Assembly: GCA_020048435.1 (NCBI GenBank)
Contig: JAIFMO010000062.1
Location: 1-39,497 of the forward strand
From: Sulfuritalea sp.
Lineage (GTDB): Bacteria; Pseudomonadota; Gammaproteobacteria; Burkholderiales; Rhodocyclaceae
Length of the DNA: 39,497 bases
Direction of reading: 5' to 3'
Positions 32,440-39,497 of the stretch are shown here, one piece after another. Made by a program: the position numbers and the translations under genes. Position 1 is the stretch's first letter. The number at the start of each line of letters is the position of its first letter. Under the pieces are notes generated by a model, which made no database searches, was not told the DNA's origin, and saw only the letters and a program-made list of their open reading frames with translations.

Positions 32440-33789
32440 TTAAATGTTCGTCGTCCGCCTGGCGGCAATCACCTGTTCCATTGCCAGCGCAAGACGATCC
32501 ATTTGCGTCGACAACTGGCGGGAGGCAGCCGTTTGCCCGGAGGCAATATCCTGCAAGACGCGATGATCCGTCGTTACGGTAACCACGGCGGCAGCCAGAT
32601 CCGTCACCGCCTTGCGCTGTTCATCAAGCCCGGACATCGCCCGTTCGAGCGCGATTTCAAAATACTTCACGTTGTTCGCCAGTTTCAGCAGCACCTCTTC
32701 CTGGGCATTTACCTTGTCGATGGTCTTCGACTGCTGGTCGACAGCCTTGCGAATTTTTTCGGTCGCCGCCGATACCGAGTCCGGCACCGCATGCAGGGAA
32801 CTGGCAATTCGCCGCGACTCGGCTTCAAGGTTGCCGGCAAATCCGTTGACCTGCGCGACGACCGTTGCAAGTGAGTTCCGAAGTTCCAGGGTGGCGGGCT
32901 TTATCTCGTCGGCGAACAACTGGGCCGGAAAAGTCAGGCCGTTCAAGTTCTTGTTGAGCGCGGCCGAAAAATCGTCAATCTTCTGCGTCAAGCCGGTCAG
33001 CGAGCTGCCGATTGCATAGGAGAAGGTATCCACCTTGCCGGTCATATTCTCTGAAAACTGGTTTAGCTTCGCCTCGTGGTGCTTGGCCGTGACGACAAGC
33101 GAAGTGGCGTAGAGTTGAAGCGACTTGCGCAGATCCGCCGACGAAGCATCCAGGTTTTGCAAAGACCGTTGCGACGATTCGGTGATCTGTTGGCCGATAT
33201 TGTCGAAGAGTCGCGTGAACTCGGCGGTATTGGACTTTGCCGTCTCCTCGATGGAGAGTTCCATCCGCGACACCACTTTGCGGGCAGCTCCGTCAACGAC
33301 CTCGTTAAACTCGTGCAACTTTTCGACGGCCGCACCCAGGTGCGTGCGGAAAACCCGTTCCGCTTCTAGCAGGTCATCTTCGATCGCTCGCGTGATGTCG
33401 CCAATATCCTTGCGGAAGCTGACCAGATAAACGCGCACGATCAGGCCGAACACCGTGCTGACCATGGCGGCGCCAAAGCGCACTGCGATGTCTTCCAGTT
33501 TCCCGCCAGTCTGCAACCCGGGCAGATCGAACAAGCTAACGATGATCGAGCTGATGGTGAAGATGAAACCAAGGTAGTAGCAACTATCGGCGAATTTTTC
33601 ATCCGAGACCGCCTCCTTGTCCCGCCACCACAGCCCACCAAAAACATAGGCGCTCATGATCAGCAAAGGAACAACGAAGCTGAGAATCCACCGATCACCG
33701 AGCCACCAGCCGAGCAGGGTGGCGCCGATCTTCAGGACAATGGTGTAGATGAACAGTTCCTGAACGGAAATCTTCCCACGATGTTTCAT
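32440..33789 (-). CDS. MotA/TolQ/ExbB-like membrane protein with long coiled-coil tail (ZorA-like architecture)
   Basis: N-terminal TM cluster incl. FADSCYYLGFIFTISSIIVSLF and IAVRFGAAMVSTVFGLIVRVYLV (ExbB/MotA-like TM pair), then ~280 aa of helical heptad-like sequence. Start at ATG 33789. Confidence 0.7.
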   Translation of the reverse strand: MKHRGKISVQELFIYTIVLKIGATLLGWWLGDRWILSFVVPLLIMSAYVFGGLWWRDKEAVSDEKFADSCYYLGFIFTISSIIVSLFDLPGLQTGGKLEDIAVRFGAAMVSTVFGLIVRVYLVSFRKDIGDITRAIEDDLLEAERVFRTHLGAAVEKLHEFNEVVDGAARKVVSRMELSIEETAKSNTAEFTRLFDNIGQQITESSQRSLQNLDASSADLRKSLQLYATSLVVTAKHHEAKLNQFSENMTGKVDTFSYAIGSSLTGLTQKIDDFSAALNKNLNGLTFPAQLFADEIKPATLELRNSLATVVAQVNGFAGNLEAESRRIASSLHAVPDSVSAATEKIRKAVDQQSKTIDKVNAQEEVLLKLANNVKYFEIALERAMSGLDEQRKAVTDLAAAVVTVTTDHRVLQDIASGQTAASRQLSTQMDRLALAMEQVIAARRTTNI

Positions 33790-33857
33790 GGTTATCCCTC
33801 GGGTTATTGAACTCGGCTGGCGCAATGACTGAAAACTGACTGACTCGTAAAATGACG

Positions 33858-33876
33858 ACGGGAGCCGAAGCTCCCG
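33858..33876 (-). terminator. Hairpin at the end of the tmRNA coding piece
   Basis: GGGAGC-TTCG-GCTCCC on the minus strand followed by a weak T-tract (gtcgtcatttt). Confidence 0.65.
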
Positions 33877-33921
33877 CCGATAGCCATTCTGTTTATTGGA
33901 CGGCTACATCCTCAGCATGCC

Positions 33922-33954
33922 TTAAGCGGCAATTGCGAAACGCTCATCGTTGGC
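33922..33954 (-). other. tmRNA proteolysis tag ORF (ANDERFAIAA*)
   Basis: Direct translation on the minus strand; ends AIAA-stop like known tags. Confidence 0.95.
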
Positions 33955-34191
33955 GTTTGTGGTTTTGCGCGGATTACGTCCGTCGCCTCTCGAGCCGCCT
34001 GCTTACCTTCTACGCCCTGTCGAAACCAGTACACCCCCCCAGTGGTGGAGGTGGCGGGAATCGAACCCGCGTCCAGAACGCTTCCGGGTCGCCGGAATTA
34101 CGACCATGCCCGGATTATGAGGCTCCGCGGGCTCGAATTCAAGTTGCGTTGAGATATTTTGCTCGATCAGGGCTGTGCGCTGGTGCCGCGG

Positions 34192-35793: not shown

Positions 35794-36950
35794 GGGGTTT
35801 CGCTCTCGGGCGCATCGGAAAGGGTGTAGGCGTGCGTCTCGAAGCGACGATGCGCACTGGCAAGATATTCGTGCGAACCCATCTCGGCGAGGCGCGAGAC
35901 GGTACGCTGGAATTCGCTGGATTGCGTCCCGCGCGTGTAGAGGGCTTCGGCGGGAACGGCGGCGGTAAGAATCAGTTTCACACGATGATCATAAAGCACA
36001 TCGACCAACCAGGTGAAACGGCGCGCGGCGGCAGCCTGTTCCGGCGCCATTGCCGGCACGCCGGACAGGAAAACGGTGTGAAAGGTGTGCGCAATATCCA
36101 GGTAGTCGTTTTGTGAGCGCGGCCCGCCGCAGAGCGTGGCAAAGTCGCACCAGAGCACGCCGGGCGCGCGGCGGATCACTTGGAGTTCGCGCTGCATGAG
36201 CATCAACGGCTGTGCATAGCCTTCGCCGCCGGCGATCTGTATGAAGGCGGCGCGCAGCCGTTCTTCACTGGCGGCGTCAATCGGTATGTGGAAAACCGCA
36301 GCGTGCTCGAGAGTGCGCAAGCGGTAGTCGATGCCGGCATCGATTTCGATGACGTCGAGCCGCTCGTTCAACAGCGCGAGGGTCGGCAGCAGCCGCTCGC
36401 GCTGGAGTCCGTTGGGATAAAGGCCGTCGGGGGGATAGTTGGACGTGATGCAAAACAGCACGCCGGCTTCGAACAGCGCCGCCATCAGGCGGGCGAGAAT
36501 CATGGCATCGGCGATGTCGGCGACGTGGAATTCGTCGAAACACAGCAACCGGGTTTCCCGCGCCACCCGCGCCGCCACCCGTGCCAGCGGATCGGCCTCG
36601 TTCCTGTGGGCGCGCAAACGTTCATGCACTTCGCGCATGAAGGCGTGAAAATGCACCCGCCGCTTGCGCCGGTAAGGCACCGCGTCGAAGAAGCAATCCA
36701 TCAGGAAGCTCTTGCCGCGCCCGACGCCCCCCCAGAACCAGACGCCCTTGGGCAATTCCGGCCGCAGGAACAGCTTCCGGAGCTTCGTGCGCCGCGTCGC
36801 CTTGAATGCAAGTAGGTCGTCGTAGAACGTTTGCAAGCGGGTGGCGGCCGCCTGTTGCGCTTCGTCTGCCACAATACCGCGCCCGTTCAACGCGGCATTG
36901 AAAGCCAGGATCACGCCGTCTTTCGGGACGTTGAGAATATGGTGGGGCAT
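35790..36950 (-). CDS. zapE: AFG1-family ATPase ZapE
   Basis: KGVWFWGGVGRGKSFLMDCFFDAVPYRRKRRVHFHAFMREVHERL...LLCFDEFHVADIADAMILARL; start at ATG 36950. Confidence 0.94.
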   Translation of the reverse strand: MPHHILNVPKDGVILAFNAALNGRGIVADEAQQAAATRLQTFYDDLLAFKATRRTKLRKLFLRPELPKGVWFWGGVGRGKSFLMDCFFDAVPYRRKRRVHFHAFMREVHERLRAHRNEADPLARVAARVARETRLLCFDEFHVADIADAMILARLMAALFEAGVLFCITSNYPPDGLYPNGLQRERLLPTLALLNERLDVIEIDAGIDYRLRTLEHAAVFHIPIDAASEERLRAAFIQIAGGEGYAQPLMLMQRELQVIRRAPGVLWCDFATLCGGPRSQNDYLDIAHTFHTVFLSGVPAMAPEQAAAARRFTWLVDVLYDHRVKLILTAAVPAEALYTRGTQSSEFQRTVSRLAEMGSHEYLASAHRRFETHAYTLSDAPESETP

Positions 36951-39497
36951 CAGCTCAGCGTTGCTTCGATCATGTCCCAGCGCTTGTCGCGCACCATAAC
37001 GAAACGGCAGCGCCCATCGGATAATTCGGCCCACAGGTCGCCGATCAGCCGGTCGTCCGCCGCGTCATTCCAGCGATCCGCCCCTTTGTATTCGACCACC
37101 AGTACCGAGCTGTCCGGCAGCAGACAGACAAAATCCGGGTAAAAACGGCCCTGCGCCTTTTGCAGGAAGAACGCACAACCCTCGCGGCGCACCAAATTAC
37201 GCACCCAGAAGCGGATACGCCCGGCCTGCGCCCACTGGTCGAGCTGCACCGCGCAGGCGAACTCCTCTTCGCTATCGAAGGCGCCGACGCGGCCGTAAAA
37301 GTGCTTGCGGAACACCACGCCGGTCGCTTTCGGATCGTAATCGCGCGTCGGCGCATAAGCATGCGGGTGGAACTCGAAGACCTGCGCCGCGCTTACCGCC
37401 ACGCGGGTCGCACGATCGTCGCCGAACAACACGCTTTGGTAAGTCAGCGCGATGGCCGACAGGCGCAAGGCCTTCACTCGCGCCTCGATCAAATCGCGCA
37501 GGAGATATTTCTGCAAATTGGCGCGTGCCAGATCGAATCCAGGCTGGTGCAAGAGTTCGCCCAGCCAATGGGCGATGAAGGCCTGTTTGGCCGCGTGCGT
37601 TAGCGACGGCTCAGGCAGATTCTTCGCCAGCCAGGCTGCGAGCTTCACCGCATCCCAATGCTCGGGACGATAGACGAGGCCCAGGTCGCGTTGCAGGTCG
37701 GCGATGAAATGTTGTTGCAGTGTGCCGGTGGCCGCGTCGAAGTCAATCTCGCCGCCCTCGCTCACCTTGAGCCCTACGCTCAGCCGTTGTAGGTCGTCCG
37801 CCGTCGGTGCCGCATCGTAGGGCGATAAATCCCACGGATATTCCAGCACCTCGGGGTCATCGAAAAGTGTCGGCTGCGCACTCGCGTCATGGCGCAAACA
37901 CAAGTGCGGCACCACGAAACGCTCGCCCAACTCGGCCGGCGTCTGGAAAAACTCGATGGCCGTCGTTCGACTTTGCAAAGCGGCAGCGGCAATCGCCTCC
38001 CGCGCCGGGATGGAAACCACCGTTTGTTGCAACGCAGCGGTTTCCGCGCCATCGAGCGGTCGCGCAATCGTCAGCGTCGCGGCCAGATCGTCCCAGGCAA
38101 GCTTTTCGCGCAATGGCTTTGGCAGTGCCTTTATTTCCGGCTTTTCCGACAAAGCCACGACGACAGGATGCAGCGTCGCCCGCTCGCCCCAGCCAGCCAG
38201 ATCAAGCAGCGCCTGATCGGACTTGGCGGCGGTAACAAACTCGCGCACCTCGCGCCGCTCGAAGCCCGCACCGGCAATCAGCCGCTCGCGCAGATGTGCG
38301 GCCGTCTCGGCGAAGTTGGCCGAGACGACGAAGGCATAGGCGCGGTTGAGCGCCGCATTCTCGAAGTGCCGCGCTTGCGGCTGGCGCAACACACGGCCGA
38401 GCAACTGCTCGACGGCGGTGGAGGAATGCACCGCCGCCATGCTCACCAGAATATAGGCATGCGGGCAATCCCAGCCCTCGGCCAGCGCCTTTTGCGTGAT
38501 GATGAAACGCACCGGGCACGCCGGGTCGGCAATCCCTAGCGGATACTTCGCGTCGATTTCTTCCAGCCCGTGCTCTTCGCCGGTGGCCACGACAATCTGC
38601 TCGGCCGGAATGCGCTGATTGTCGTGGATCAACACGATGGGCCGCAGATAGCGTCCCGCCGAAAAGTCGGCGGTAGCGGTACGGCGCAATTCCTGCTCGG
38701 CCAGCGCCTGCAAGCCTTCCCGCCGCGCGATGGCATCGGCCAGGCACTGCTGCCAGTTCGGCTCCGCTTCCAGCAACACCGGCAGCTTGATCATCTGCTC
38801 GGCCTTCAATTCGCCGGCAGAAACACTGTGCAGCACATTGGACGGCGTCCGCTCCAGATCCGGCGTCGCGGTCAGTTCCAGCACACCCGACGGATTGAAG
38901 CGCGCCAGCATGTCGAAGGCCAGCGGCGTGCGGTTGTTGTGCGCCTCGTCCACGATGACGAAGGGGCGGCGCAGACGCAGCACGTTGGCCAGCGAATACG
39001 GCGTCGTCTCGCCTTCCTGCAACAGGCTTGCCCGTTGCACGGTGGTCAGGCCGTCGAAATGGTGCATCAACGCACCGGATGACTCATACACCTTGCGGCT
39101 TTCGGCATCTTCCACCTGAAACGCCTGGCGCGTGGCGACGATTACCACGGTCGACGTGTCCAGCGTCGCGAGCGTCAGGCTTTTCGCCTCGTCCAGATCG
39201 AGCACCGTCACCGGCCCCGCCTCGCGCAAGGCGGTGTGATACGGATGCTCGCGCCCCTTGAGGCCGCGCAAGGTCTGTTCGCGGATCGGCTTCGACGGCA
39301 CCAGCCACAAAATCACGCTGCGCTCGCAACGCAGCAACTGGTCATTCACCAACTTCAGGCTCTTCGCCGCCAGCCAGGTCTTGCCACCGCCCGTCGGCAC
39401 CCGCAGGCAAAAATACGGCATCGCGGCAGGGAAACCCGTCAGCGGCCGATACTTCTGCCCCTCGCCCCACAGCGCCTTTGTCGTCGCATAAAACGCC
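36950..39497 (-). CDS. Type III restriction Res-like DEAD/SF2 helicase with C-terminal PD-(D/E)XK-like nuclease; 5' end outside the window
   Basis: Walker A VPTGGGKTWLAAKSL, DEAH (VIVDEAHNNRTP), SF2 C-terminal motifs (EGWDCPHAYILVS...QLLGRVLRQPQ), C-terminal FYPDFVCLLPDSSVLVVEYKG. Frame stays open to the window edge upstream of M 39421. Confidence 0.88.
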   Translation of the reverse strand, partial: AFYATTKALWGEGQKYRPLTGFPAAMPYFCLRVPTGGGKTWLAAKSLKLVNDQLLRCERSVILWLVPSKPIREQTLRGLKGREHPYHTALREAGPVTVLDLDEAKSLTLATLDTSTVVIVATRQAFQVEDAESRKVYESSGALMHHFDGLTTVQRASLLQEGETTPYSLANVLRLRRPFVIVDEAHNNRTPLAFDMLARFNPSGVLELTATPDLERTPSNVLHSVSAGELKAEQMIKLPVLLEAEPNWQQCLADAIARREGLQALAEQELRRTATADFSAGRYLRPIVLIHDNQRIPAEQIVVATGEEHGLEEIDAKYPLGIADPACPVRFIITQKALAEGWDCPHAYILVSMAAVHSSTAVEQLLGRVLRQPQARHFENAALNRAYAFVVSANFAETAAHLRERLIAGAGFERREVREFVTAAKSDQALLDLAGWGERATLHPVVVALSEKPEIKALPKPLREKLAWDDLAATLTIARPLDGAETAALQQTVVSIPAREAIAAAALQSRTTAIEFFQTPAELGERFVVPHLCLRHDASAQPTLFDDPEVLEYPWDLSPYDAAPTADDLQRLSVGLKVSEGGEIDFDAATGTLQQHFIADLQRDLGLVYRPEHWDAVKLAAWLAKNLPEPSLTHAAKQAFIAHWLGELLHQPGFDLARANLQKYLLRDLIEARVKALRLSAIALTYQSVLFGDDRATRVAVSAAQVFEFHPHAYAPTRDYDPKATGVVFRKHFYGRVGAFDSEEEFACAVQLDQWAQAGRIRFWVRNLVRREGCAFFLQKAQGRFYPDFVCLLPDSSVLVVEYKGADRWNDAADDRLIGDLWAELSDGRCRFVMVRDKRWDMIEATLS
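38661..38686 (+). repeat. Dispersed 26-bp repeat, copy 4
   Basis: GAAAAGTCGGCGGTAGCGGTACGGCG; 24/26 identical to copy 2; antisense to the helicase gene it lies in. Confidence 0.88.

Follow-up and report, generated by a model that had tools for sequence, protein, structure and literature searches.

The window, the whole stretch of 39,497 nucleotides analysed here, carries a tmRNA gene on its minus strand at 33853-34156. The gene matches the betaproteobacterial permuted tmRNA family of Rfam (beta_tmRNA, RF01850) with 238 bits against a gathering threshold of 84 (E 5e-76) and covers the full model, positions 1-331. The tmRNA_permuted model of Rfam matches the same locus at 160 bits, and ARAGORN independently called a permuted tmRNA at 33831-34135 (-) with the tag ANDERFAIAA; together these calls are far beyond chance. 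Read along the minus strand, the gene has its acceptor half (T-arm, CACCTCC, A and CCA; 34053-34043) ahead of the coding half, which starts with GGGGGTG at 34038. The halves are complementary over seven pairs with G3-U70 and A73, and the tag frame ends in hydrophobic residues followed by a stop (ANDERFAIAA*). The reading as a permuted two-piece tmRNA, put forward in a preliminary description of this DNA, therefore holds, and the four nucleotides CTGG that it placed between the encoded CCA and GGGGGTG (34042-34039) are real; a spacer of this length recurs in relatives. The sequence features argue that the locus very probably encodes a functional two-piece tmRNA of the known betaproteobacterial family, in a recurring form with a minimal spacer. 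The features are listed in Table 1; the promoter motif CTTGAA...CATAAT is also found upstream of many relatives' tmRNA genes.

Table 1. Features of the permuted tmRNA gene, in window coordinates
Feature	Position	Strand	Basis
Sigma-70-like promoter TTGAAT-17 nt-CATAAT, directly upstream of the acceptor piece	34114..34142	-	9/12 positions fit the consensus; motif match only
Acceptor (3') piece, tRNA-like half with T-arm, CACCTCC, A and CCA	34043..34107	-	Rfam, ARAGORN and sequence reading; 5' end is the start site predicted from the promoter
Acceptor 3' strand CACCTCC	34053-34047	-	Sequence reading
Discriminator A	34046	-	Sequence reading
Encoded CCA	34045-34043	-	Sequence reading
Intervening segment CTGG, 4 nt	34042-34039	-	Sequence reading; equal length in 30/135 family genes
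Coding (5') piece: GGGGGTG, tag frame and 3' hairpin	33853..34038	-	Rfam, ARAGORN and sequence reading
Acceptor 5' strand GGGGGTG	34038-34032	-	Sequence reading
Tag reading frame GCC...TAA, ANDERFAIAA*	33922..33954	-	ARAGORN
Terminator-like hairpin, 10 pairs, then TCATTTT, after the coding half	33856..33879	-	Sequence pattern only

Genome context and partner genes

The assembly is a draft of 3.05 Mb in 247 contigs and is 92% complete. ARAGORN finds one tmRNA gene in the whole assembly and RF01850 likewise one copy. The one-piece model RF00023 gave no match above its cut-off anywhere in the genome, an absence that is not absolute at 92% completeness. A second, conventional ssrA, named in the preliminary description as a finding that would speak against it, was thus searched genome-wide with both models and ARAGORN, and none was found. 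SmpB lies on contig C108 (tblastn, 48% over 149 amino acids, E 1e-44, with an E. coli query), and further E. coli queries gave matches to RNase PH, the CCA-adding enzyme and RnpA. The RNase P RNA of the genome is of class A (284 bits) and contains CGGGUAG, the L15 element whose GGU pairs with the RCC of the substrate.

The window is chromosomal, with gyrA, serC, pheA and hisC-like genes. It also encodes a type III restriction enzyme Res-like protein (36950-39421, -), and the protein adjoining the tmRNA gene (32440-33825, -) has a weak match to MotA/ExbB/TolQ (ZorA-like).

Spacer length in relatives

A survey of the family began from RF01850 matches, without selection on the spacer, and covered 401 family genomes, of which 167 have a permuted tmRNA above the cut-off. 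From these genomes 135 genes were parsed. The distance from the discriminator to G1 is exactly 7 nt (CCA + 4) in 30 of the 135, spread over 11 genera, which is probably an underestimate because the lowest-scoring genes are under-represented and tend to have short spacers. The distance is 23-51 nt in 105 genes and 8-22 nt in none. CCA is encoded in all 30 short genes, in the pattern CCA-C-[T/A/G]-[G/A]-N, so that the spacer is always C-N-R-N. Most long-spacer genes instead read CCNAAG...CTTNGGT without CCA, and their acceptor helix is extended through the CCA positions, typically by 10-14 pairs. Nine long-spacer genes begin with CCA, and three of these, all from genus g20, read CCACT followed by a segment that does not continue the helix; these three could be intermediates. 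G3-U70 and A73 are present in every one of the 135 genes, acceptor position 5-68 is occupied by three standard pair types, and the tag is kept alike in short- and long-spacer genes.

The comparison across relatives that had been called for in the preliminary description thus shows the 4-nt spacer to be a recurrent state of the family. The idea that it is unique to this genome is rejected by an identical spacer length in 29 other family genes, and this recurrence also rejects chance or artefact as its source. A conserved locus position among the short-spacer genes was also considered and rejected, as the flanking proteins were unmatched in the loci compared.

Pattern scans for short spacers use exact motifs, which undercount and give biased length distributions; read with this limit, the scan of named genomes returned 29 loci, 27 with exactly 4 nt and two with 3 nt, including many Accumulibacter and Dechloromonas sp. 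H13. A corresponding exact-motif scan of Alphaproteobacteria found CCA followed by at most 14 nt in 35 of 401 genomes, two of them with 2 nt, both confirmed as alpha_tmRNA. Across the sequences compared, very short spacers recur, and a fixed length of 4 nt typifies the window's family.

Some single loci deserve mention. Permuted tmRNA genes with spacers of 3-5 nt occur in L237 (G1381; 1307-1631), L049 (Hydrogenophaga aromaticivorans; 3-290) and L039 (4909-5212). G1381 belongs to the same order as the window's organism but lies outside its family, and its tmRNA and that of Hydrogenophaga score little above the RF01850 gathering threshold and are therefore divergent. A record titled Mycobacteriaceae (L065) has a Rhodocyclaceae-like short-spacer tmRNA and is probably misbinned or mistitled. 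In L016 (G028; 427-704) the beta tmRNA match is without T-arm and acceptor 3' strand owing to an internal deletion in the acceptor piece, probably an assembly error or a pseudogene.

Predicted structure of the connecting loop

Folds of the T-arm, acceptor and spacer together separate the two spacer classes. In the long class, positions 73-76 are for the most part paired, with mean probabilities of being unpaired of 0.04, 0.20, 0.04 and 0.14, whereas in the short class A73 and A76 are almost entirely unpaired (0.97 and 1.00). C74 and C75 of the short class are predicted to pair mainly in the spacer variants that end in GG, of which the window's CTGG is one: RNAfold pairs both Gs of the spacer with C74 and C75, whose probabilities of being unpaired are 0.09 and 0.11. 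The acceptor stem capped by a tiny loop that was proposed in the preliminary description is thus recovered as a predicted loop of 8 nt, with the qualification that CC:GG pairing may close this loop, ACCACUGG, to a triloop with A73 bulged. For most other short variants an open loop is predicted. Pairing within the short loop is rejected as a general, conserved feature, since CC can pair with GG only in the CTGG and CAGG variants.

Evolutionary history

A gene tree built without the spacer places 25 short genes, including the window's, in one supported group and the other five in four places. The tree is unrooted and rests on about 300 columns with long branches and unsettled bootstrap, and it is with these limits that the approximately unbiased (AU) test rejects a single clade of all 30 short genes (p = 0.012) and a single group of the four tmRNA genes of the window's genus (p = 8e-5). 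A single origin of the short spacer is accordingly disfavoured. These sequences suggest either repeated changes of the spacer state or replacement of genes between lineages, and on an unrooted tree the short form may also be the ancestral one.

Proposed maturation and alternative explanations

The gene anatomy, the spacer and its conservation, the single copy, SmpB, the RNase P RNA and the matches to RNase PH and the CCA-enzyme are observed, and from them we infer transcription ends, RNase P as the cutter, an order of steps and activity. The reading that we favour, with a probability of about two in three, is that of a functional betaproteobacterial two-piece tmRNA with a minimal spacer that is matured by one RNase P cut and 3' trimming. 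A single transcript would run from the promoter immediately before the acceptor half to the hairpin that follows the coding half. The precursor would fold with GGGGGUG paired to CACCUCC and with the loop A-CCA-CUGG as a cap. A cut by RNase P before G1 (between 34039 and 34038) would be the sole endonucleolytic cut needed; it would free the coding piece and leave the acceptor piece with a CCA-CUGG end. Trimming of the 4-nt tail to the encoded CCA could then fall to a 3' exonuclease, for example RNase PH, so that a second endonuclease and CCA addition would be unneeded. The halves would stay paired, be charged with alanine by way of G3-U70 and act with SmpB in trans-translation. In favour of this reading are also the CCA encoded by every short gene and the contrast in the folds, with A73 and A76 normally free in the short class but positions 73-76 largely paired in the long one.

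Searches for other processing enzymes bear on this route in both directions. Canonical RNase Z (TIGR02651) reached the cut-off in none of 33 family genomes, whether short- or long-spacer, and distant metallo-beta-lactamase matches were found in every genome searched. Because canonical RNase Z falls below the cut-off in all 33, the route of cutting and trimming is the simpler one, and since this applies to both spacer classes, it points to a single endonuclease in the family. For the same reason, the idea that the short form was driven by loss of RNase Z is unsupported. Canonical RNase T (TIGR01298) reached its curated cut-off in none of 33 Rhodocyclaceae genomes, which counts against the proposed route. 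With both enzymes below cut-off, tRNA 3' maturation in these 33 genomes may rely on enzymes other than RNase Z and RNase T.

We know of no experiment in which RNase P cuts a substrate whose leader is joined to the CCA by 4 nt. In favour of the proposal, maturation of a two-piece tmRNA in Orientia by cleavage of the connecting loop is documented by Northern blot and RNA-seq (PMC7335160). Pairing of leader N(-2)N(-1) with the RCCA slows E. coli RNase P, most of all for GG, which nevertheless occurs in 5 of 87 natural E. coli precursors (PMC9433436). The window's leader, G(-2)G(-1), belongs to this slowest class and its CC:GG pairing is predicted, which counts against the proposal.

That slowing would suit a different order of events, which we consider rather unlikely: the loop is opened first by another nuclease, which could be RNase E/G or an RNase Z relative of the metallo-beta-lactamase type that acts after the CCA, and RNase P then trims only the 5' end. 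The distant metallo-beta-lactamase matches would supply a candidate, and a review proposes RNase P together with tRNase Z for permuted precursors (PMC3985003). However, this order is weakened by RNase Z staying below its cut-off in all 33 genomes and by a loop of 8 nt, or of three unpaired nucleotides if CC:GG forms, that is not AU-rich. It is very improbable that the locus is transcribed but unseparated, or is a decaying copy, with rescue left to another factor. The very short spacer could be read in that way, but the genes parsed from both spacer classes retain the paired stem, G3-U70, A73 and the tag, spacers of equal length recur across 11 genera, with Dechloromonas sp. H13 and many Accumulibacter among their carriers, and this is the sole tmRNA gene in the genome. 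Moreover, charging of tmRNA requires a free CCA end.

Least credible is an artefact in which the spacer was lost in the draft or the contig came from another species. A draft of 247 contigs would fit such an error, as would the separation of the gene from its counterparts in three genomes of the same genus (the AU result above), yet the identical spacer length in 29 other family genes, a contig whose composition is highly typical of the assembly (rank 6 of 60) and a neighbouring ZapE-like protein closest to that of a same-genus genome (G003, 77%) largely exclude it.

Beyond maturation by one RNase P cut and trimming, it may be, though we put this a little below even odds, that the CCA-encoding 4-nt spacer constitutes a distinct mode of maturation, gained or retained on several occasions. 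RNase P would here act on an 8-nt loop with the leader covalently joined to the CCA, and one cut would replace the multi-step removal of the long paired spacer and the CCA addition of relatives.

Comparison with known systems

The permuted form of tmRNA is itself long known. Two-piece tmRNA in Betaproteobacteria was reportedly described by Sharkady and Williams in 2004, as cited in PMC11915505 and PMC3985003. No description of the minimal-spacer form was found in the literature searched, a search without the original papers (Sharkady and Williams 2004; Mao et al. 2009), in which an earlier remark on short spacers is possible. The route by which the joining segment is removed is mostly assumed, although permuted tmRNA genes are well catalogued, with 11,946 unique sequences (PMC11915505). 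Among close relatives, even in a single genus, some genes have a long paired spacer and lack CCA, and others have a 4-nt spacer and encode it. The two forms are natural substrates for the question of whether leader and CCA end must be free for RNase P to act. The contrast also bears on the smallest loop that RNase P can open, and if the distinct mode is true, a single cut stands in for several steps.

Compared with the betaproteobacterial family RF01850, the window's gene is alike in gene order, tRNA-like domain, tag and 3' hairpin. In most members, however, discriminator and G1 are 23-51 nt apart, CCA is mostly lacking and the acceptor helix is extended, whereas the window's gene has a 4-nt spacer and an encoded CCA. 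Alphaproteobacterial permuted tmRNA (RF01849) shares the permutation, and some members have short spacers, down to 2 nt, but it is a different sequence family with graded spacer lengths where the window's family has a fixed 4 nt. Permuted tRNA genes of algae and archaea also have their halves reversed around a short spacer in the acceptor loop (PMC3978253). In Thermofilum pendens this spacer is a single nucleotide, and its removal was called intriguing by the authors, who stated the question as open (PMC3978253). The halves of these permuted tRNAs are rejoined, by way of a circular RNA, into a single tRNA (PMC3978253), whereas two-piece tmRNA stays in two pieces.
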